From Verrucomicrobiota bacterium (GTDB lineage Bacteria > Verrucomicrobiota > Verrucomicrobiia > Chthoniobacterales > UBA10450), in NCBI GenBank assembly GCA_003218395.1, contig QHNJ01000088.1, forward strand, positions 1 through 37,499: a stretch of 37,499 bases of DNA. The letters are read 5' to 3'. Below, piece after piece: positions 28,069-37,429 of the stretch. Each line of letters opens with the position of its first letter. Position 1 is the stretch's first letter. The notes below the pieces were generated by a model, which ran no database searches, was not told the DNA's origin, and saw only the letters and a list, made by a program, of their open reading frames with translations. The translations under genes were made by a program, and so were the position numbers.

Positions 28069-28611
28069 ATGGATCCCAATGAACGCGAACAGTATCGGGC
28101 GGCCATTCACGGCGAGCGGGACGCATTTGAGATGATCATTCGCACGCATAGCCGGGCACTTTTCGCCATCGCTTACGGCATTCTGCAAAACCGCGAGGAA
28201 GCCGAGGACGCCGTGCAGGATGCGCTGGTTAAAGCATGGAAAACACGCTGGCGCGTGCACGATCCGGAAAAATTTCCCGTCTGGCTGGCGACTATTGCCC
28301 GTCATCGGGCTCACGACATTTTTCGAAAGCGTCGCACCGTCCCGCTGTCTGCAACAATTGACGAAGCAATTGAACCGAACTCGGCCGCCGGGACCGACGC
28401 TCCAGAGTTGGATCAACAATTGCATTCCGCGCTCGCAGCGCTGCCGGAGCTTCATCGCGCCGCGCTGACGTTGCGTTACTTCGAAGAGATGGATTATCGC
28501 AGCATCGAAAACATCCTGGGCCTAAGCAACGGGGCGCTGCGCGGAATTCTCGGCCGCGCATTGGCCTCGATGCGCAAACAACTGCGGCCTGCCCTTGCTT
28601 CACTGGATTAA
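28069..28611 (+). CDS. ECF-family RNA polymerase sigma factor
   Basis: 180 residues. Region 2 is visible as FEMIIRTHSRALFAIAYGIL followed by EEAEDAVQDALVKAWKT, and region 4 as LPELHRAALTLRYFEEMDYR then SIENILGLSNGALRGILGRAL. There is no region 3, as expected for an extracytoplasmic-function sigma. The gene is followed after three bases by a zinc-finger anti-sigma gene, so sigma activity is probably held in check by that membrane partner. The target promoters are unknown. Confidence 0.93.
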   Translation: MDPNEREQYRAAIHGERDAFEMIIRTHSRALFAIAYGILQNREEAEDAVQDALVKAWKTRWRVHDPEKFPVWLATIARHRAHDIFRKRRTVPLSATIDEAIEPNSAAGTDAPELDQQLHSALAALPELHRAALTLRYFEEMDYRSIENILGLSNGALRGILGRALASMRKQLRPALASLD

Positions 28612-28614
28612 CCC

Positions 28615-30636
28615 ATGGCAACCATCCACGACGAAATTGACAGCTGGCTCGCCGCCGATATTCACGGCGAGCTTTCCGAGGATGAACGCAGCGCGCTTCA
28701 CGCACATATCGTCGATTGCGCCGCGTGCCGAAAGGCTCATCAGGAGAACAAAGTCATGAACAAAATGTTGGAAGAAACCCTCGCCCAGGAAAAACCAGAT
28801 CCTGCTTTCGAACAGCGCATGCTTTCCGGTTTTCGCAACCGCATTCCCGAAAGGAGCGGACTTGTAAAGCTGCTTGTCGATCTGATGCGTTTGCGCGCCG
28901 TGCAAATTACCGCAGTAACTGCGATCCTTGTGGGATTAGTGCAAATGGGCCGCATGATCACGGGCGAAAATGCGACTCCGCTGCGCGATCGCGAACGCTA
29001 CGCACAGGTAGAAGTGGCCGCACCGCAGCCGCCGGAATCACGCCCAGGTCAAGCGGGCGCTCTGGCTAGATCAGGCGGAGTCGCCGCTGGACGACCACAG
29101 GACTTGGCGCTCGAGGCACCGCCGGCAGCACCTGCAACTAGATCAAAATTCCACGAAGAGGGCAAAGCAGCTGGCACAACGGTTGCGCCGGCCAAAGCTG
29201 CGCAGCCAGAAGCTCGTGACGTAGAAACGCTCGTAGTCCCAGAGAATGCTGCGATGGGAGAGGAGGCTACACAAAGTCCAGTTGAATCGCCCGCTGCCGC
29301 ACTGGCCAACCGCAAACTGATTCGAAACGCGACTGTGGAACTGGAGATCGTCAGCTTTGATGATGCAGTGCAGAAGATCACGGCGTTTGCGAACGAAGAA
29401 CGCGGTTATGTGGCAACGACAAGTTCTGAAAAACAGGCGAACGGGAAACTAAAAGGCGAAATTGTCGTCAAGGTTCTGCCGGAAAATCTTGATCATTTCC
29501 TGCAAAAGCTTCGCGGGATTGGCCAATTGAAAAACCAAACACTCGGCACCGAAGATGTGACTAAGGCGTATTTCGACACTGATGCAAGGCTCAAGAACGC
29601 ACGCGTGATGGAGCAGCGTTTGATCGACATGTTGAAAACGAAGACCGGCAAGGTCTCCGATTTGCTTCAGGTCGAGAAGGAACTTGGGCGCGTGCGCGAA
29701 GAGATCGAGAAGATGCAGGGCGAATTGAAATATTGGGATTCGCAAGTGCAATTCGCCAGGGTGACGATTTCGCTTGCAGAAAAACACATGGAAGAACCGG
29801 CGTCCTTTCTGCTTAAGGAACACGCGCAACTCGCGCTCTACGCGTCCGATGTGGAGAAAATTTACAACGAGGCGAAAGTGCTGGCTTCGCCGAAAGTGCA
29901 AATTACAAATGCGCAGCTTGATCGCGATTATTCGGGACGCGTCTCGGCGCGGGTGAGCATGTTAATTGCGCCCGAAGAGAGCGAGACCCTGATCAGTCGA
30001 GTTAAGGGATTTGGGCGCGTCGAAAATTTTCAATCGCAGACCGAACGCATCGCGCAGGGCGGCAGCGGCATGTCGCAGAATGCAAAAACCAAGCGGGACA
30101 AAGTAGAGTTAAACGTCACGATCTCGCGCGAGGAACAGGAACAAGCATTTCAGCAGACCAGTCTGCGCATTCGCACGTCAGCGGTTGACGAAAAAGCCAA
30201 GGAGCTTCGCAGTCTGACCGAGAAACAAAACGGGCGCGTCAGAAGTTCTACGTTTAGTCGCGATCCAGACGGGCACGAAGTGGCGAATGTCTCACTGCGC
30301 GTTCCGATGAAAAATTATTCGGCGCTCATGCAATCGCTCAACGCTCTTGGCAGAGTCGAGGACGTGAGCGTACAGCGACAGGACCGCATCGGCGGCCAAA
30401 TCGATGAAGCGAGCGCGCCGGCGGACATCTCGATCCAGGTTTACAGCCAGGGCAACATCGTTTCGTCCGATACTGGCCTCGTCGCCACGCTGCGCCGAAC
30501 ATTGGCGCAAAGCGCAGCCGCGATCATGTGGAGCTTGCGCATGATTGGCGTCGCAGTGGCGTTTCTCGCACCCTGGGCGATCGCGGTCATTTTCGTTGTT
30601 TGGATCGCCAAACGGATCGCTCGTGCGCGACAATAA
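28615..30636 (+). CDS. Anti-sigma factor with zf-HC2 domain and DUF4349 region
   Basis: 673 residues, starting three bases after the sigma gene. The N-terminus is a zf-HC2 zinc anti-sigma domain (His31, Cys35, Cys38 in HIVDCAACRKAHQ). A hydrophobic stretch at about 91-108 may cross the membrane, followed by a Pro/Ala-rich linker. Residues of about 235-390 match DUF4349 (RNATVELEIVSFDDAVQKI, DTDARLKNARVMEQRL, then coiled-coil helices). A second, related long region follows, then a C-terminal membrane helix (about 635-660) and a basic tail. It probably senses an envelope signal and releases the sigma factor. Fusion of zf-HC2 with DUF4349 in a protein this long is uncommon. Confidence 0.85.
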   Translation: MATIHDEIDSWLAADIHGELSEDERSALHAHIVDCAACRKAHQENKVMNKMLEETLAQEKPDPAFEQRMLSGFRNRIPERSGLVKLLVDLMRLRAVQITAVTAILVGLVQMGRMITGENATPLRDRERYAQVEVAAPQPPESRPGQAGALARSGGVAAGRPQDLALEAPPAAPATRSKFHEEGKAAGTTVAPAKAAQPEARDVETLVVPENAAMGEEATQSPVESPAAALANRKLIRNATVELEIVSFDDAVQKITAFANEERGYVATTSSEKQANGKLKGEIVVKVLPENLDHFLQKLRGIGQLKNQTLGTEDVTKAYFDTDARLKNARVMEQRLIDMLKTKTGKVSDLLQVEKELGRVREEIEKMQGELKYWDSQVQFARVTISLAEKHMEEPASFLLKEHAQLALYASDVEKIYNEAKVLASPKVQITNAQLDRDYSGRVSARVSMLIAPEESETLISRVKGFGRVENFQSQTERIAQGGSGMSQNAKTKRDKVELNVTISREEQEQAFQQTSLRIRTSAVDEKAKELRSLTEKQNGRVRSSTFSRDPDGHEVANVSLRVPMKNYSALMQSLNALGRVEDVSVQRQDRIGGQIDEASAPADISIQVYSQGNIVSSDTGLVATLRRTLAQSAAAIMWSLRMIGVAVAFLAPWAIAVIFVVWIAKRIARARQ

Positions 30637-30736: not shown

Positions 30737-32539
30737 ATGAAGTCTGAAGGCGGTATCAGCTATAGCAACGCGGCGGTCGCCGCGACCCCTAAACATCTTT
30801 TGCAATTCGCAGTTGATCAGCGTTACGACGATTACACGTCAGTCGATCACGCGGTCTGGCGATTCATCATGCGCCAGAACGTTTTCTTCCTGAAGGAATA
30901 CGCGCACAAGGTTTACTTCAAGGGTCTTCTCAACACTGGCATTTCGTTTGACCGCATCCCGCGCATTCAAGAAATGAATGATATTCTTGCGAAAATCGAT
31001 TGGGGCGCAGTGGCGGTGGACGGATTTATTCCGCCGGCGGCGTTCATGGAATTTCAGGCTTACAAGGTACTGGTGATCGCGTGCGATATGCGGCAAATCC
31101 ATCATATCGAATACACGCCCGCGCCTGACATCGTCCACGAGGCGGCGGGTCACGCACCGATCATTGTCGATCGCGAGTACTCGAATTACTTGCAGCGCTT
31201 CGGCGAAGTCGGCGCAAAGGCGATGTCTTCAAAAAAAGATTTCGAGCTCTACCAAGCGATCCGTCACTTGTCGATCCTGAAAGAGCAGCCAAACAGCGAT
31301 CCAAAAGAAGTCGAGGGAGCAACTAGGCTGGTCGAACATCGGCAAAAAACTTTAGGCGAACCATCCGAGATGGCGCTGCTCTCGCGCTTGCATTGGTGGA
31401 CGGTCGAATATGGATTGATCGGCACACTGGAGAACCCGAAAATTTACGGGGCGGGTTTGCTTTCATCCATCGGGGAATCGGTTTCGTGCCTCGAACCTGC
31501 AGTTAAAAAACTCCCCTACTCCATCGACGCACAAAATTGCGCATTCGACATCACGACGAGGCAGCCGCAGTTGTTCGTTTGCCGCGATTTCAAGCATCTC
31601 GCGGATGTGCTTGAAGAATTTGCGAACAAGATGGCGTTCATGGTTGGTGGACTCCAAGGCATCAACAAGGCCATCGAATGCAAAAACGTCGCGACCTGTG
31701 AATATTCATCGCGCCTCCAGGTGAGCGGTGTATTCAACGAGGTCATTACTGACAAAAACAATTCCCCGATTTATCTGCGGACGACCGGTAACAGCGCGCT
31801 CGGGTTTCGCGACAAAGAACTCGAGGGCCACGGCATCGATTATCACAAAGAAGGCTTCGGTTCGCCCGTCGGCAAGTGGAAACACACATCGACATCTCCC
31901 GAGTTGCTTACCAACGATCAGCTGCACGCGCTAGGCATTGTTGAAGGGAAGAAAGCGAAGCTCGATTTTGTCAGCGGCATCGCTGTTTCTGGGAAGGTCG
32001 AGAAAGTGTTGCGCCGCGACGGAAAGTTGTTGCTTATCACATTCTCAAATTGCAGTGCGAAATATGGCGACCGCGTCCTGTTCGATCCTGACTGGGGAAC
32101 TTACTACATGGCGGTCGGCGAGCGAATCAGTTCTGTCTTTAACGGCGCGGCAGACAAGGATGCTTACAATCAGGTGGCCCTTGTTCCGAAAGAACGGACC
32201 ATCAAAGTTCCATCGGACGCCAAGCGCAAGCGGCTTGAGAATCTTTACGCGCAGGTGCGCAAGATCCGCGAGAGCAAAACCGGCCAGGAACGGCTCGGCG
32301 AAATCTGGGAGACACAGCAGGCCGAACATCCCGGCGATTGGTTACTGTCCATGGAAATCTTTGAGATCCTCGACACGACCGGTCAGCAGGCAGAGTTGAA
32401 AGCTAGGATCGAGAAGTTTCTGAACAAGAAGAAGGGGACGACGAAAGATCTGTCGACGCTAATTAGTTGGGGGTTCCGCTTGGTCGAGTATCACAAGAAA
32501 CCGGAATATCAGGCGACATTGCACGCGTCGCCGAAGTAA
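30737..32539 (+). CDS. Aromatic amino acid hydroxylase (phenylalanine 4-hydroxylase type), long form
   Basis: 600 residues. The non-haem iron ligands are visible: His134 and His139 in DIVHEAAGHAPII, and Glu224 in LHWWTVEYGLIG. These are the 2-His-1-Glu residues of pterin-dependent aromatic amino acid hydroxylases. The enzyme uses O2 and a tetrahydropterin to convert phenylalanine to tyrosine, which fits the tyrosine-degradation and pterin genes convergent to it. After about residue 335 there are 260 further residues (EVITDKNNSPIYLRTTGNSA and onwards) not found in short bacterial PhhA; they end in a helical region. This long form is known from scattered bacterial groups. Tyrosine or tryptophan as substrate cannot be excluded. 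Confidence 0.9.
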   Translation: MKSEGGISYSNAAVAATPKHLLQFAVDQRYDDYTSVDHAVWRFIMRQNVFFLKEYAHKVYFKGLLNTGISFDRIPRIQEMNDILAKIDWGAVAVDGFIPPAAFMEFQAYKVLVIACDMRQIHHIEYTPAPDIVHEAAGHAPIIVDREYSNYLQRFGEVGAKAMSSKKDFELYQAIRHLSILKEQPNSDPKEVEGATRLVEHRQKTLGEPSEMALLSRLHWWTVEYGLIGTLENPKIYGAGLLSSIGESVSCLEPAVKKLPYSIDAQNCAFDITTRQPQLFVCRDFKHLADVLEEFANKMAFMVGGLQGINKAIECKNVATCEYSSRLQVSGVFNEVITDKNNSPIYLRTTGNSALGFRDKELEGHGIDYHKEGFGSPVGKWKHTSTSPELLTNDQLHALGIVEGKKAKLDFVSGIAVSGKVEKVLRRDGKLLLITFSNCSAKYGDRVLFDPDWGTYYMAVGERISSVFNGAADKDAYNQVALVPKERTIKVPSDAKRKRLENLYAQVRKIRESKTGQERLGEIWETQQAEHPGDWLLSMEIFEILDTTGQQAELKARIEKFLNKKKGTTKDLSTLISWGFRLVEYHKKPEYQATLHASPK

Positions 32540-32635: not shown

Positions 32636-33484
32636 TCAAACCGTTTCGTCTTTGAAATGGCGTTTACCTTTTAACGCCTTCGCATACTCATCCTTGCTTA
32701 GAATATTTTCGTCGAGCTGCATCTCCGTTCGACAAAGATTTTTGAAAAATGTCTCGATGCGTTCCTTGCTACTCATTACTTCGTCGGTCAGATAATTAAC
32801 ATCGACATTGATACAGATTGCGCCCACGATCCCGAATTCCTTGCGCGTAATCGGAATCGTCGTGCATTTGAATTTCCGCGCGCCAATGTTCAGTTCGTAG
32901 TTCAGCTTTTCCTCATTAAGAAGCTGGCGCTTTTTGAGATCGATCAGGAGGTTAGTCGTGCCGTCGCGCAGATGACGGCCCGTAACATTATTTTCCAGCA
33001 CAATCAGCGAATGCGCCGGATCAGCCAGATTGTGCAGCAAAATCTCAATACCTGTGTTCGGGAATGATTTTCCAATCAGCCGCACGATCCGCACGTAATT
33101 CTCCAGGAATTCGTTGGTGTCATCGGCAATTTTCTTTCCGTCGTATCTATCAAAAAGTTGCGCGTAGACTTTTTGCTCCGCTGGTTCGAGCTGGCCGCGC
33201 ACGTTATTTTGTTCGCCGATAAAAAGCAGTTGCCGCGCCGCAGTGTGGTCGTTGTTTTTGAGAAAATAATGCATCCCGAGCCGGAAATCTTTCAGGCTGA
33301 ACTCGCCGAAGTTCTCGCGAGAAACGGTGAACGGATAAAAGTCGTACTCTTCGAGGTTTCTGCCAAACTCCCGACGCCGTTCCTTGTATTTTCCCCACAG
33401 AAAGCCTGCCGTAAGAAAGAGCAGCGATACAATGATCGATGCGACGACATTGATACTGAGCTCGCTTTGCAGAGCTTTGATCAT
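32636..33484 (-). CDS. Membrane-anchored YheO-type PAS domain protein
   Basis: 282 residues. One N-terminal membrane segment (about 10-29, NVVASIIVSLLFLTAGFLWG) is followed by a cytosolic stretch, then a PAS domain like that of YheO/DauR transcription factors from about residue 130 to 230 (GIEILLHNLADPAHSLIVLE, VTGRHLRDGTTNLLIDL, FGIVGAICINVDVNYL). The DNA-binding helix-turn-helix that follows this domain in YheO is not seen; instead there is a short helical end (SSKERIETFFKNLC). It may sense an amino acid or pterin and act through a partner. It is last in the minus-strand series, 49 bases after the reductase gene. Confidence 0.75.
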   Translation of the reverse strand: MIKALQSELSINVVASIIVSLLFLTAGFLWGKYKERRREFGRNLEEYDFYPFTVSRENFGEFSLKDFRLGMHYFLKNNDHTAARQLLFIGEQNNVRGQLEPAEQKVYAQLFDRYDGKKIADDTNEFLENYVRIVRLIGKSFPNTGIEILLHNLADPAHSLIVLENNVTGRHLRDGTTNLLIDLKKRQLLNEEKLNYELNIGARKFKCTTIPITRKEFGIVGAICINVDVNYLTDEVMSSKERIETFFKNLCRTEMQLDENILSKDEYAKALKGKRHFKDETV

Positions 33485-33533: not shown

Positions 33534-34226
33534 TCATAGATTTCCAGTCAGGCTTGACAGGGTAATATTCTCCAGCGCGACGTTGTTTGGTCGCGAGAGC
33601 GCGTAGGCTACGGCGCCGGCAACCTCTTCGGGCGAGATCATCCTTTCGCGCGGCCACTCGCCTTCGATGCTGTTCCATATATTGGTATTAGTGGCGGCCG
33701 GATAAACGTTAATGACGCGAATTTTACGGTCGCGTAATTCTTCGCGGACGGACTGGGAAAATCCCTCGAGCGCAAACTTGCTCATGCAGTATGCGCTCCA
33801 ATTGGCGAAGGCGGTTTTGGCGGCGATCGAAAGAATGTTCACGATGCTCGATCCCGGCGGCATGTTTGGAGCAAAATGCTGCGTTAATGTAAATGGCGCG
33901 GTGACATTCACGCCCAGTGTTTGCTCCCATTCGGTAGGCGTGATTTCTCCAAACGGCTTCACGATTGCAATGCCAGCGTTGTTCACCAGTAAATCCAACG
34001 GGTGGTTGCCAACCGCGGCGATTAGATCGGAAATACCGGACGCGACAGCAAGATCGTGGATCAGGCGAACCACGCGTGCGCAGCGAGGCTCCACGCATTT
34101 ACAAACGTCCGCCAAAGCGACAGTATCGCGTCCATGAAGAAGCAGCACCACGTCGGGTGCCGCCAGTTTTTCGGCGATCGCGCGACCAATTCCGCGACTC
34201 GCTCCAGTGATCAGATAGCGTCTCAT
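33534..34226 (-). CDS. Short-chain dehydrogenase/reductase, candidate sepiapterin-type reductase
   Basis: 230 residues. Classical SDR features are all visible: the NADP loop TGASRGIG (7-14), NNAG (82-85), and the catalytic Ser133, Tyr146 and Lys150 in SIAAKTAFANWSAYCMSKFA. The enzyme reduces a carbonyl with NADPH. The neighbours make the precursor 6-pyruvoyl-tetrahydropterin, so reduction of that compound to tetrahydrobiopterin, or a FolM-like dihydropterin reduction, is the best guess; this is inferred from context only, since SDR sequences do not show the substrate. Confidence 0.85.
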   Translation of the reverse strand: MRRYLITGASRGIGRAIAEKLAAPDVVLLLHGRDTVALADVCKCVEPRCARVVRLIHDLAVASGISDLIAAVGNHPLDLLVNNAGIAIVKPFGEITPTEWEQTLGVNVTAPFTLTQHFAPNMPPGSSIVNILSIAAKTAFANWSAYCMSKFALEGFSQSVREELRDRKIRVINVYPAATNTNIWNSIEGEWPRERMISPEEVAGAVAYALSRPNNVALENITLSSLTGNL

Positions 34227-34363: not shown

Positions 34364-35575
34364 CTAGGTTCTTCGCAACGTAAATCGATTATTCGCGGTT
34401 TCCCACAAACGCAATCGCACGAGCTGCTGATTGACGCGATTGTCGATCTTCGGCCAAAGCGCCCGGACAATATTTTCGCCGGTCGAAGGGACATCTCGAA
34501 AATCGTTTGTCTCCAAATCGAGATGTCGATTTTGCCACGGCTTAAGCGACTCTTCGATGGCTTTTCTAAACGCAACAAAATCATAAAGCGTTCCACTCCG
34601 TTTGTCGTACTCGCCGCCAACCGTTGTCTCCGTCAGATAACGATGACCATGACCGAGCGGATTATTGCACTTGCCATAGAGCTTCGCGTTCTCGGCGTCA
34701 GAAAGAGCAGTGGCATGCAGACGATGCGCAGCATTGAACGGCATCCACGTTCCGAGAAAAATAATCTTATCGCCCCACGCTTCCGCAAAAAAATCTTCGC
34801 GCTCGTGCAAACGGATGCGGTGCAGCGACACCGCGGCTTTTACGCGTTCATAAATATATCCCGCTAAACTTTCAGTCGTAACAGGACGATCCCTTAATCC
34901 AACGACCTCCTGATTGAGATAACGATGATTGAGTTCGTCACGCAACGCGTGGAGACAAGCGTCGATGGCATCGTGGCGAACCAACAGCGCTTTTGCATCA
35001 AGTCTCTCCGTTCGAAAAGTGAGACGAGCCCGGTAATTGTGCCCGTGGATTGAAGTTGCCCTGCCAAACAAGCGGGCATTTTCCTCTTTGTTCACGTGCG
35101 GCGACACCGTTTTGCGCGCAGCCGAAAACTCGAACCAATAATTTGCTTCGCCGCCGCCGTCGAAATAGAAAGTCGCGCTCCGTTCGGGCGACTCGCTCAC
35201 ATGGCAAGCTGCGAGTGTTGCATCAACATCGGAGAACAGCGGCGCAACATCGAGATGAAGCTGTCGAGCAATATTTTCAGCAGTGGGTGGAACATCACAG
35301 AACGAAGGGTTGTCCTTATTGAGGAATTTGTGATCGAAACGCTCACGTACAATTTTGCCGGCACGCTCTTTGATTTCGCCGATATTGATCAGCATTCCGT
35401 TGCTTGGATCAACGGGCCCGGTAAAAACAAAATACGCAACGTAATTGCGACCCGTGCCATGACGAGCATTGGTTTCAGGACCGAAAACCGCCAGATTTTC
35501 GGCGTCGCTCCAACTGTCAACGTGCAAACGCCGCGATGCCGAGAACTCGATACGTTTGCTGACCGTCAATAGCAT
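34364..35575 (-). CDS. Three fused 6-pyruvoyl-tetrahydropterin synthase-like (PTPS/QueD) domains
   Basis: 403 residues made of three PTPS-type units, about 1-140, 145-268 and 272-403. PTPS converts dihydroneopterin triphosphate from GTP cyclohydrolase to 6-pyruvoyl-tetrahydropterin, using three Zn-His, a Cys, and an Asp-His pair. Domain 3 keeps His284 (FNAAHRL), Cys303, His309 and His311 (LGHGHRY), but the Asp-His pair reads Gln348-Asn349. Domain 1 has the reverse: FSASRRL lacks the first His and TGRNY replaces HGHNY, but Asp81-His82 (DHKFLN) is intact. Domain 2 keeps His177 and His179 (HGHNY), has Arg154 for the first His, no Cys, and Asn216-His217. A Glu in the expected C-terminal place is present in all three (128, 258, 392). 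The gene lies eight bases after folE. A queuosine (QueD) role is less likely because no queuosine genes are here. Confidence 0.88.
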   Translation of the reverse strand: MLLTVSKRIEFSASRRLHVDSWSDAENLAVFGPETNARHGTGRNYVAYFVFTGPVDPSNGMLINIGEIKERAGKIVRERFDHKFLNKDNPSFCDVPPTAENIARQLHLDVAPLFSDVDATLAACHVSESPERSATFYFDGGGEANYWFEFSAARKTVSPHVNKEENARLFGRATSIHGHNYRARLTFRTERLDAKALLVRHDAIDACLHALRDELNHRYLNQEVVGLRDRPVTTESLAGYIYERVKAAVSLHRIRLHEREDFFAEAWGDKIIFLGTWMPFNAAHRLHATALSDAENAKLYGKCNNPLGHGHRYLTETTVGGEYDKRSGTLYDFVAFRKAIEESLKPWQNRHLDLETNDFRDVPSTGENIVRALWPKIDNRVNQQLVRLRLWETANNRFTLRRT

Positions 35576-35583
35576 GACGTCAG

Positions 35584-36213
35584 CTAATCCTTGAGAAGTG
35601 AGAGAAATTCCGAGCGAGTTCGCGCGTCGTCCTTGAAAGAGCCAAGCAGGCAGGAAGTCTTCATCACGGAATTTTGCTTTTCAACTCCGCGCATCATCAT
35701 GCAAAGATGTTTTGCTTCTACGACGACTGCTACGCCAGACGGTTCGAGACATCCCATGAGCGATTCGGCGATCTGAGTCGTGAGGTTTTCCTGGATTTGC
35801 AAACGGCGCGCGAAAACGTCGACAATCCGCGCCACTTTGGAAAGCCCGATCACTTTCCCGTTTGGAATGTAAGCCACGTGTGCCCGTCCGATAAACGGCA
35901 GCAAGTGATGCTCGCACAGTGAATACAGCTCAATGTCTTTAACCAAAATGATTTCACTCGCGTCCGAAGCGAAGACGGCGTCGTTGATGATTTCCTCAAG
36001 GTCCTGCCGATAGCCTTGGGTGAGAAATTCGAAGGCACGCGCCGCCCGATCCGGAGTGCGTCGCAGACCTTCTCGATCCGAATCCTCGCCGACACTTTCA
36101 AGCAGTTGGCGATAGGCGCTCGCGATCCGATCGAGATCGTTTTCCGGCAATCGAGTGATATCGCGCGTAAATCGCTCTTCGATATCGAGATCTGAATTGC
36201 GGCGTTGAATCAT
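35584..36213 (-). CDS. folE: GTP cyclohydrolase I
   Basis: 209 residues. It converts GTP to 7,8-dihydroneopterin triphosphate, the entry to folate and biopterin. Zinc ligands Cys100 and His103 lie in [11 protein letters not shown], and Cys171 in [14 protein letters not shown], with the substrate loop [10 protein letters not shown]. It is an ordinary FolE in length and motifs. Its position between homogentisate dioxygenase and the PTPS gene suggests dedication to cofactor supply for the hydroxylase; folate use is also possible. Gaps are 31 bases upstream and eight bases downstream. Confidence 0.95.
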
Positions 36214-36244: not shown

Positions 36245-37429
36245 TTAATCGAGCCAGCTCTGCGGATACTTCGGATCGTCGAGCGCGAGCGATTCCTCCG
36301 TCAACTCGAGCGTGTGTTGGGTGTCGAACATCACGGCGAGTTCCTCGGTGCGCGCTGCATTCTTGCTCGCCATGATCGTGCCCGGATGGGGACCGTGCGG
36401 AATGCCACGCGGGTGCAAGGTGATAGACCCGCTCTCGATTCCGCGGCGCGATCCGAAATTGCCACGCACGTAAAATAAAACTTCGTCCGCTTCGACGTTG
36501 TCGTGCACCCACGGAATTTTTACCGCCTCAGGGTGCGTATCGAGCAGGCGCGGCGCAAATGTGCACACAACGTAACCGCGAATCTCAAACGTCTGATGGA
36601 TCGGCGGCGGTTGATGCACCGTGCCGGTGATCGGCTCGAAATCCTGCGCGTTAAACGTAAACGGATAAAGATAACCATCCCAGCCGACGGCATCGAATGG
36701 ATGATGCGCGAGCGTGACGCGCGTGAAACGCGGACCGTCCTTCACCAGAACATCGACGTCCTCCTCCTTATCGATCGTAATCAACTCGGTCGGTGCATGC
36801 AGATCGCGCTCCGAATAGGGCGCGCCCATTTTTATTTGCCCCTCATGATTCAAATAGCGCTGCGGAATCCGAACCGGGCCGACCGATTCGAGAATTAGAT
36901 AATCCTCCTCTTCAACTTTGTCCGGAACCAGCCGGTACGTGATGCCACGCGGAATGACGATGTAATCTTCGGCCCGATAAGGCAATTTGCCGAAGACAGA
37001 TTCCAGCACGCCACCACCGTGAAAAACGAAAATGATCTCATCCGCGCCACCGTTCTTGTAATATTCGAATTTGTCACAGGCCTTCGCGGGTCTCGCCCGG
37101 TACGCGGTCATGTCCTGATTGAACAGCATCGGAATGCGGCTGGTGTAGAGGTCGCCGCGACGCGGGATGTTCGCCGTTTTCAGATGATGATGGCGCAACG
37201 GACTGTCCGTCACTTTTTTCGGCTCCCACTGTTTGATCAGCTCAACTTTGCGCACCCGCGTGGGTGGGCGCAGGTGGTACATGATCGAGTAGGCTTCGTC
37301 GAATCCTTGCGTGGTAAAGACATGCTCGTAGGCGATGCCTTCGTTCTTGTAAGTTGGCGTCGCGCCGTTGCGATGAAACCAGATGTGATGTTTTCTCGGA
37401 ACCTCACCAAGTTTTTGATAATACGGCAT
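36245..37429 (-). CDS. hmgA: Homogentisate 1,2-dioxygenase
   Basis: 394 residues, close to the bacterial form of the enzyme. It opens the ring of homogentisate with O2 and Fe(II) to maleylacetoacetate. The cupin-type iron region is visible: VHDNVEADEVLFYVRGNF with the His and Glu ligands, and the second His in RGIPHGPHPG. HHHLKTANIPRRGD and HHPFDAVGWDGYLYPF are other conserved blocks. The start ATG 37429 has AGGAGG six bases upstream. It lies 11 bases downstream of a partial gene whose C-terminus matches 4-hydroxyphenylpyruvate dioxygenase, the preceding step. Confidence 0.93.
   Translation of the reverse strand: MPYYQKLGEVPRKHHIWFHRNGATPTYKNEGIAYEHVFTTQGFDEAYSIMYHLRPPTRVRKVELIKQWEPKKVTDSPLRHHHLKTANIPRRGDLYTSRIPMLFNQDMTAYRARPAKACDKFEYYKNGGADEIIFVFHGGGVLESVFGKLPYRAEDYIVIPRGITYRLVPDKVEEEDYLILESVGPVRIPQRYLNHEGQIKMGAPYSERDLHAPTELITIDKEEDVDVLVKDGPRFTRVTLAHHPFDAVGWDGYLYPFTFNAQDFEPITGTVHQPPPIHQTFEIRGYVVCTFAPRLLDTHPEAVKIPWVHDNVEADEVLFYVRGNFGSRRGIESGSITLHPRGIPHGPHPGTIMASKNAARTEELAVMFDTQHTLELTEESLALDDPKYPQSWLD

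Follow-up and report, generated by a model that had tools for sequence, protein, structure and literature searches.

A single-chain triple PTPS fusion from Verrucomicrobiota with one putative composite active site

Introduction

In PTPS, one subunit provides the zinc histidines, the cysteine and Glu133 of an active site, and a neighbouring subunit provides Asp88-His89. The window studied here, the whole 37,499-nucleotide stretch of DNA from a Verrucomicrobiota bacterium (Chthoniobacterales), contains a gene in which three PTPS domains with different active-site residues share one chain. This raises the question of how many active sites such a chain can form, and which domain would supply which residues. 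The known enzyme is a dimer of trimers with its sites between adjacent monomers (PMC7546909), and its triad is called intersubunit in the title of Burgisser 1995, as cited there; as far as a title goes, this bears out the premise of an earlier note on this DNA that the triad of classical PTPS lies across subunits. On the direction of the triad, the literature that we searched gave only 'intersubunit'. The same search turned up no account of a triple PTPS, although this does not prove that none exists.

Results

Three PTPS domains in one chain

The gene encodes 403 amino acids, with an ATG start and no internal stops (Table 1). The PTPS family of Pfam, PF01242, matches the protein in three stretches (9.6e-65, 216.5 bits, cut-off 22.4), and each of the three domains taken singly also passes the cut-off. 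An AlphaFold2 prediction built with 36 aligned homologues gave a pLDDT of 95.4 and a pTM of 0.92 for the full chain, with a PTPS fold in every domain (Z 17.5-18.8 against the solved rat 1gtq/1b66, human 3i2b and C. elegans 2g64). Domain 3 (270-403) superposes on human 3i2b over 134 residues at 1.2 A (Z 18.8), and domain 1 (1-139) matches rat 1gtq with Z 17.8. The three-fold fusion that the earlier note had read from the sequence is thus found both by Pfam and in a confident model.

Domains 1 and 2 of the model, taken together, can also be superposed on uricases, which are tandem T-folds (224 residues at 4.5 A, Z about 11), and this fits neighbouring segments of a single barrel; unlike the triple PTPS, uricases have two domains, no zinc and another reaction. 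Each domain corresponds to one PTPS protomer, and the three would probably close into one 12-stranded barrel.

Table 1. Features of the locus (positions in the window)
Feature	Position	Strand	Evidence and remarks
Triple PTPS fusion gene, 403 aa	34364..35575	-	Pfam, AlphaFold2 model, 63 homologues
Domain 1, residues 1-139	35159..35575	-	PTPS fold, degenerate metal half, Asp81-His82 retained
Domain 2, residues 140-269	34769..35158	-	Arg154/His177/His179/Glu258 invariant, no Cys; Asn216-His217 here, Asp-His in the family
Domain 3, residues 270-403	34367..34768	-	Full metal/Cys half, CxxxxxHGH, no Asp-His
Asp81-His82 (domain 1)	35330..35335	-	Conserved 63/63
Asn216-His217 (domain 2)	34925..34930	-	Asp216 in the other 62 sequences; codon 216 at 34928-34930 is AAT
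His284 (domain 3)	34724..34726	-	Predicted zinc ligand, 63/63
Cys303 (domain 3)	34667..34669	-	Predicted catalytic Cys, 63/63
His309-Gly310-His311 (domain 3)	34643..34651	-	Predicted zinc ligands, 63/63
Gln348-Asn349 (domain 3)	34529..34534	-	At the Asp-His position; Asp-His there 0/63
Glu392 (domain 3)	34400..34402	-	Equivalent of rat Glu133, 63/63
GTP cyclohydrolase I FolE	35584..36213	-	Pfam 9.7e-77, NCBIfam over cut-off; first step of the pathway
SDR, probably sepiapterin reductase-like	33534..34226	-	Pfam; 2bd0 match 3.9e-25
Aromatic amino acid hydroxylase, pterin-dependent	30737..32539	+	NF010657, 788.9 bits (cut-off 346)
Homogentisate dioxygenase-like protein	36245..37429	-	HgmA Pfam domains; far under the hmgA equivalog cut-off

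Active-site residues are unevenly distributed over the domains. In the window, domain 3 carries His284, Cys303, His309 and His311, with Gln348-Asn349 replacing Asp-His. Domain 1 has Arg15, Thr41 and Arg43 at the three zinc-histidine positions (rat 23, 48 and 50) and lacks the Cys42 equivalent; its Asp81-His82 corresponds to rat Asp88-His89. Domain 2 combines Arg154 (rat position 23), His177 (48) and His179 (50) with Asn216-His217 and lacks Cys. CxxxxxHGH, the motif of PTPS-II, the biopterin type (PMC5041015), occurs in domain 3 only (C303-NNPLG-H309-G-H311) and is present there in all homologues.

These homologues, retrieved from genome collections, comprise 38 sequences from Chthoniobacterales and 25 from the Zixibacteria lineage, with identity down to 43%. 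Among the 63, domain 3 always has His23, Cys42, His48, His50, Glu107 and Glu133 (rat numbering here and below) and never the Asp88-His89 pair. Domain 1 has Asp88-His89 in every sequence, Cys in none and the zinc histidines in merely 13-16. Domain 2 invariably has Arg23, His48, His50, Glu107, Glu133 and His89, never Cys, and Asp88 in 62. The metal ligands of domain 1 (HHH) are complete in 13 of the 25 Zixibacteria sequences and partly or wholly lost in the other 12; the set is incomplete in all sampled Chthoniobacterales. The earlier note had described domain 3 as keeping the zinc histidines and Cys with Gln-Asn, and domain 1 as lacking the zinc-histidine set and keeping Asp81-His82. Both descriptions are correct for the window, and the general claim that only domain 3 has a complete metal/Cys half while Asp-His persists in other domains holds throughout the alignment, distant homologues sharing the same losses. 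Its account of domain 2 (two histidines and Asn-His) is accurate for the window, but the Asn fails as a rule. Codon 216 is AAT in the window and GAT or GAC in five close relatives checked; Asn216 is peculiar to the window, through either a genuine substitution in its lineage or an error in the assembly, and the family rule for domain 2 is therefore Asp-His.

A candidate composite site

Judged by its sequence, the protein is a variant of PTPS-II and not a plain member, because three unequal domains share one chain. The reading that we favour, with confidence no better than even, is a single-chain PTPS-II pseudo-trimer with one site, on domain 3, whose Asp-His most likely comes from domain 1. 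Of the sites between domains, three in all, this one alone would then be a complete PTPS site. There, zinc would be bound by His284, His309 and His311, next to Cys303, Glu392 and a putative pterin anchor, TGEN, around Glu367; the Asp-His partner would come from another domain, most likely as Asp81-His82 across the ring-closing 3-1 interface. The metal half of domain 1 itself has decayed, and domain 2 retains an altered, Cys-less pocket. Such a site would convert dihydroneopterin triphosphate from the adjacent FolE to 6-pyruvoyl-tetrahydropterin, to be passed on to the adjacent SDR and the hydroxylase.

The pocket of domain 2 deserves separate attention. Its Arg-His-His-Glu set and a TTE motif are invariant in the 63 homologues, which speaks against a purely structural role for this domain, one of the two roles (structure or binding of a different ligand) that the earlier note had offered for the rest of the chain, and indicates that something in its pocket half is under selection. 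Tentatively, the three inter-domain pockets may all differ in function: a catalytic one, a dead one and, on domain 2, a conserved pseudo-site (Arg154, His177, His179, Glu235, Glu258, no Cys). Equally tentatively, we propose that this pseudo-site might regulate tetrahydrobiopterin synthesis by binding a pterin or triphosphate, or might carry out a separate step. From its conservation, either a regulatory or a substrate-holding pseudo-site is possible.

Which domain would donate the Asp-His

We regard domain 1 as the donor to domain 3 with about as much confidence as doubt. In its favour, the domain 1 pair is present in all homologues, whereas the domain 2 pair was lost once, in the window. The model offers a second, weak indication. 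When the domain 2+3 fragment was predicted alone, its secondary structure was nearly unchanged, the third strand of domain 3 being slightly longer, and the clearest confidence drop away from the new N-terminus fell at 188-207, the beta2-alpha1 linker and the start of helix 1 of domain 2 (blocks of about 89-97 in the full chain against 81-92 in the fragment). There was a slight drop also at 358-367. The drop at 188-207 suggests that each domain rests its helix 1 on the domain before it; in domain 1, the end of this helix that carries the Asp-His would then adjoin domain 3. Uricase has the same direction.

Two observations count against domain 1. The Asp-His of domain 2 is conserved even where the metal half of domain 1 is destroyed (in 12 of 12 Zixibacteria and 37 of 38 Chthoniobacterales sequences with an incomplete set), which would be odd if it served only the domain 1 site. 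Moreover, the Asp-His position of domain 3 is variable although the domain 2 pocket is invariant. Both point to the strongest alternative, which we consider somewhat less probable: the same pseudo-trimer with the same catalytic half on domain 3, but with the Asp-His from domain 2 (216-217). In that case the altered pocket of domain 2 would be completed by the Asp-His of domain 1, leaving domains 1 and 3 to form the dead one. This arrangement would pair the degenerate halves (domain 1 metal, domain 3 Asp-His) with each other and conserved halves with conserved ones. It would, however, leave the window's own copy with Asn for the catalytic Asp, and it runs against the fragment prediction, in which helix 1 appears to lean on the preceding and not on the following domain and, a weak point, the domain 2 Asp-His loses no confidence once domain 1 is removed.

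Covariation did not separate these two possibilities. Mutual information between domains mainly reflected the division of the sequences into two phyla. Branch-wise co-substitution missed even the contacts expected between strand 4 of one domain and strand 1 of the following one, which served as its positive control, and therefore decides nothing on the donor. For linked loss between the domain 1 histidines and the domain 3 substitutes of Asp-His there were too few independent pairs.

Domain 3 might also manage without a donated pair. Its loop is rewritten to WxxKHLD, with a His351 (rat position 91) that is invariant in the 63 homologues and found in this domain only, and a nearly invariant Trp347. 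A residue such as His351 could act as a substitute base, with domains 1 and 2 as a scaffold. We consider this unlikely: it leaves unexplained the Asp-His pairs kept in 63 of 63 sequences in domain 1 and 62 of 63 in domain 2, and the triad of known PTPS is intersubunit, as the title cited in PMC7546909 has it.

Genomic context

FolE lies upstream of the triple PTPS gene in the same direction and the SDR gene downstream, with the hydroxylase gene nearby on the opposite strand and the HgmA-like gene beyond FolE. We compared 51 related loci, many of them on contigs that end early: 43 include FolE, 44 the SDR, 32 the hydroxylase and 36 the HgmA-like gene. The order FolE-triple PTPS-SDR(-hydroxylase) is kept in Zixibacteria loci as well. 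When the SDR was compared with solved structures, sepiapterin reductase 2bd0, which we take to be the Chlorobium-type enzyme, was the fourth best match. No specific NCBIfam model exceeded its cut-off for this protein, and SDRs are hard to tell apart. The same genome has two matches to pterin-carbinolamine dehydratase and, on another contig (C37), a separate QueD-type gene with CxxxHGH.

Because of these neighbours (FolE, SDR and hydroxylase), the PTPS-II motif, the separate QueD and the dehydratase matches, the triple PTPS very likely supplies tetrahydrobiopterin, and the hydroxylase is the likely consumer of this cofactor. Automatic annotation is likely to give the protein the wrong name QueD, since it scores 106.2 bits with the NCBIfam QueD model TIGR03367 (cut-off 89.25). 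That it is a QueD-type enzyme for queuosine, as such naming would have it, is nonetheless very improbable, given a motif spacing of five (PTPS-II) in domain 3 instead of CxxxHGH, two domains without Cys, the QueD-type gene elsewhere in the genome and the pterin-related neighbours. Nor did the protein give a Pfam match to QueF, and the QueF motif is absent from its sequence.

The locus has further genes of interest. The HgmA-like protein (36245-37429) scores 58 bits against a homogentisate dioxygenase cut-off of 511, yet it is conserved beside the operon. A YheO-like PAS_6 protein (32636-33484), found beside the operon in 30 of the 51 loci, may be an operon regulator. At 28069-30636, a sigma factor-like gene precedes one for a membrane protein with zf-HC2/DUF4349; the two probably form a sigma/anti-sigma pair.

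Selection and spread

The gene or part of it is present in 60 genomes of the window's own family, and of 132 genomes from the Zixibacteria phylum, 26 have full-length matches. The rest of the sampled Verrucomicrobiota gave just weaker, single-domain matches, to domain 3. Against relatives at 79-82% identity, dN/dS is about 0.11-0.12 for the whole gene and about 0.1 in each of the three domains. Since all domains are thus constrained and the same losses recur across homologues, simple decay is excluded, and the residue pattern is, on this evidence, not due to chance or decay. The least probable explanation, a decaying or mis-assembled gene, could appeal to the active-site residues absent from two of three domains and to the window-only change at codon 216, but the losses recur in all 63 homologues, which are intact, and dN/dS is about 0.1 in each domain; sequencing error or decay, which the earlier note had kept as an alternative, falls accordingly. 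For the whole pattern, sequencing error is ruled out by 62 homologues, and only Asn216 could still be one.

Discussion

Our results suggest how a symmetric enzyme may turn asymmetric. Classical PTPS is a homohexamer built from two trimers, and its six sites are identical (PMC7546909), whereas the fused chain joins three unequal protomers and retains a single full metal/Cys half. With classical PTPS-II the protein shares the zinc histidines, Cys, Glu and CxxxxxHGH of domain 3 and the biopterin gene context. A symmetric three-site enzyme thus appears to have become lopsided, with a single working site. Splitting catalytic residues between fused T-fold domains is already known from bimodular QueF (V. 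cholerae, E. coli), which likewise has tandem T-folds and one inter-domain site, one module having lost its Cys (PMC5372742); unlike the triple PTPS it has two modules, is a nitrile reductase and has no barrel tunnel. A precedent in plant GTP cyclohydrolase did not turn up in the literature searched, and our argument makes no use of one.

In a single-chain PTPS each half-site can be mutated separately, which makes the residue donors, and the sufficiency of one site per ring, testable. The locus also points to an operon with a biopterin-linked phenylalanine hydroxylase in soil Verrucomicrobiota that are abundant but uncultured. Finally, the triple PTPS is a record of the turn to asymmetry whose probable precursors, tandem genes and two-domain fusions, are still alive.

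When the domains were entered in a tree singly, each of the three formed a clade of its own with full support, so a single origin of the fusion is most likely. Of the members of tandem gene pairs, PTPS-a joins domain 1 (support 91/99) and PTPS-b joins domain 3 (94/72); domain 2 is unplaced. The tree makes such tandem PTPS genes, which other bacteria still carry, the probable source of domains 1 and 3. The full-length tree, rooted at its midpoint, places Chthoniobacterales sequences near Zixibacteria ones, which hints at gene transfer.

Tandem PTPS-a/PTPS-b genes were seen at L083:5986-6826 and L084:3755-4737, where they adjoin FolE and SDR, and also in L147, L148 and L149. Their a-then-b order is that of domains 1 and 3; unlike these, they are separate genes, with complete His/Cys/Asp-His sets in both. 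Such a pair is possibly a heteromeric PTPS and the likely ancestor of the fusion.

Two-domain PTPS fusions with an N-terminal domain lacking Cys occur in L146, L150, L151 and L085. In the first three the N-terminal domain has Asp-His without Cys and the C-terminal domain has Cys, as in the triple PTPS; they differ from it in having two domains, and none of the three falls within the clades of domains 1, 2 or 3. L146, whose C-terminal domain combines Cys with Asp-Cys, shows a parallel complementary loss. At L083:6823-7677 we also observed a FolE with an additional N-terminal part that resembles a phosphoribosyltransferase.
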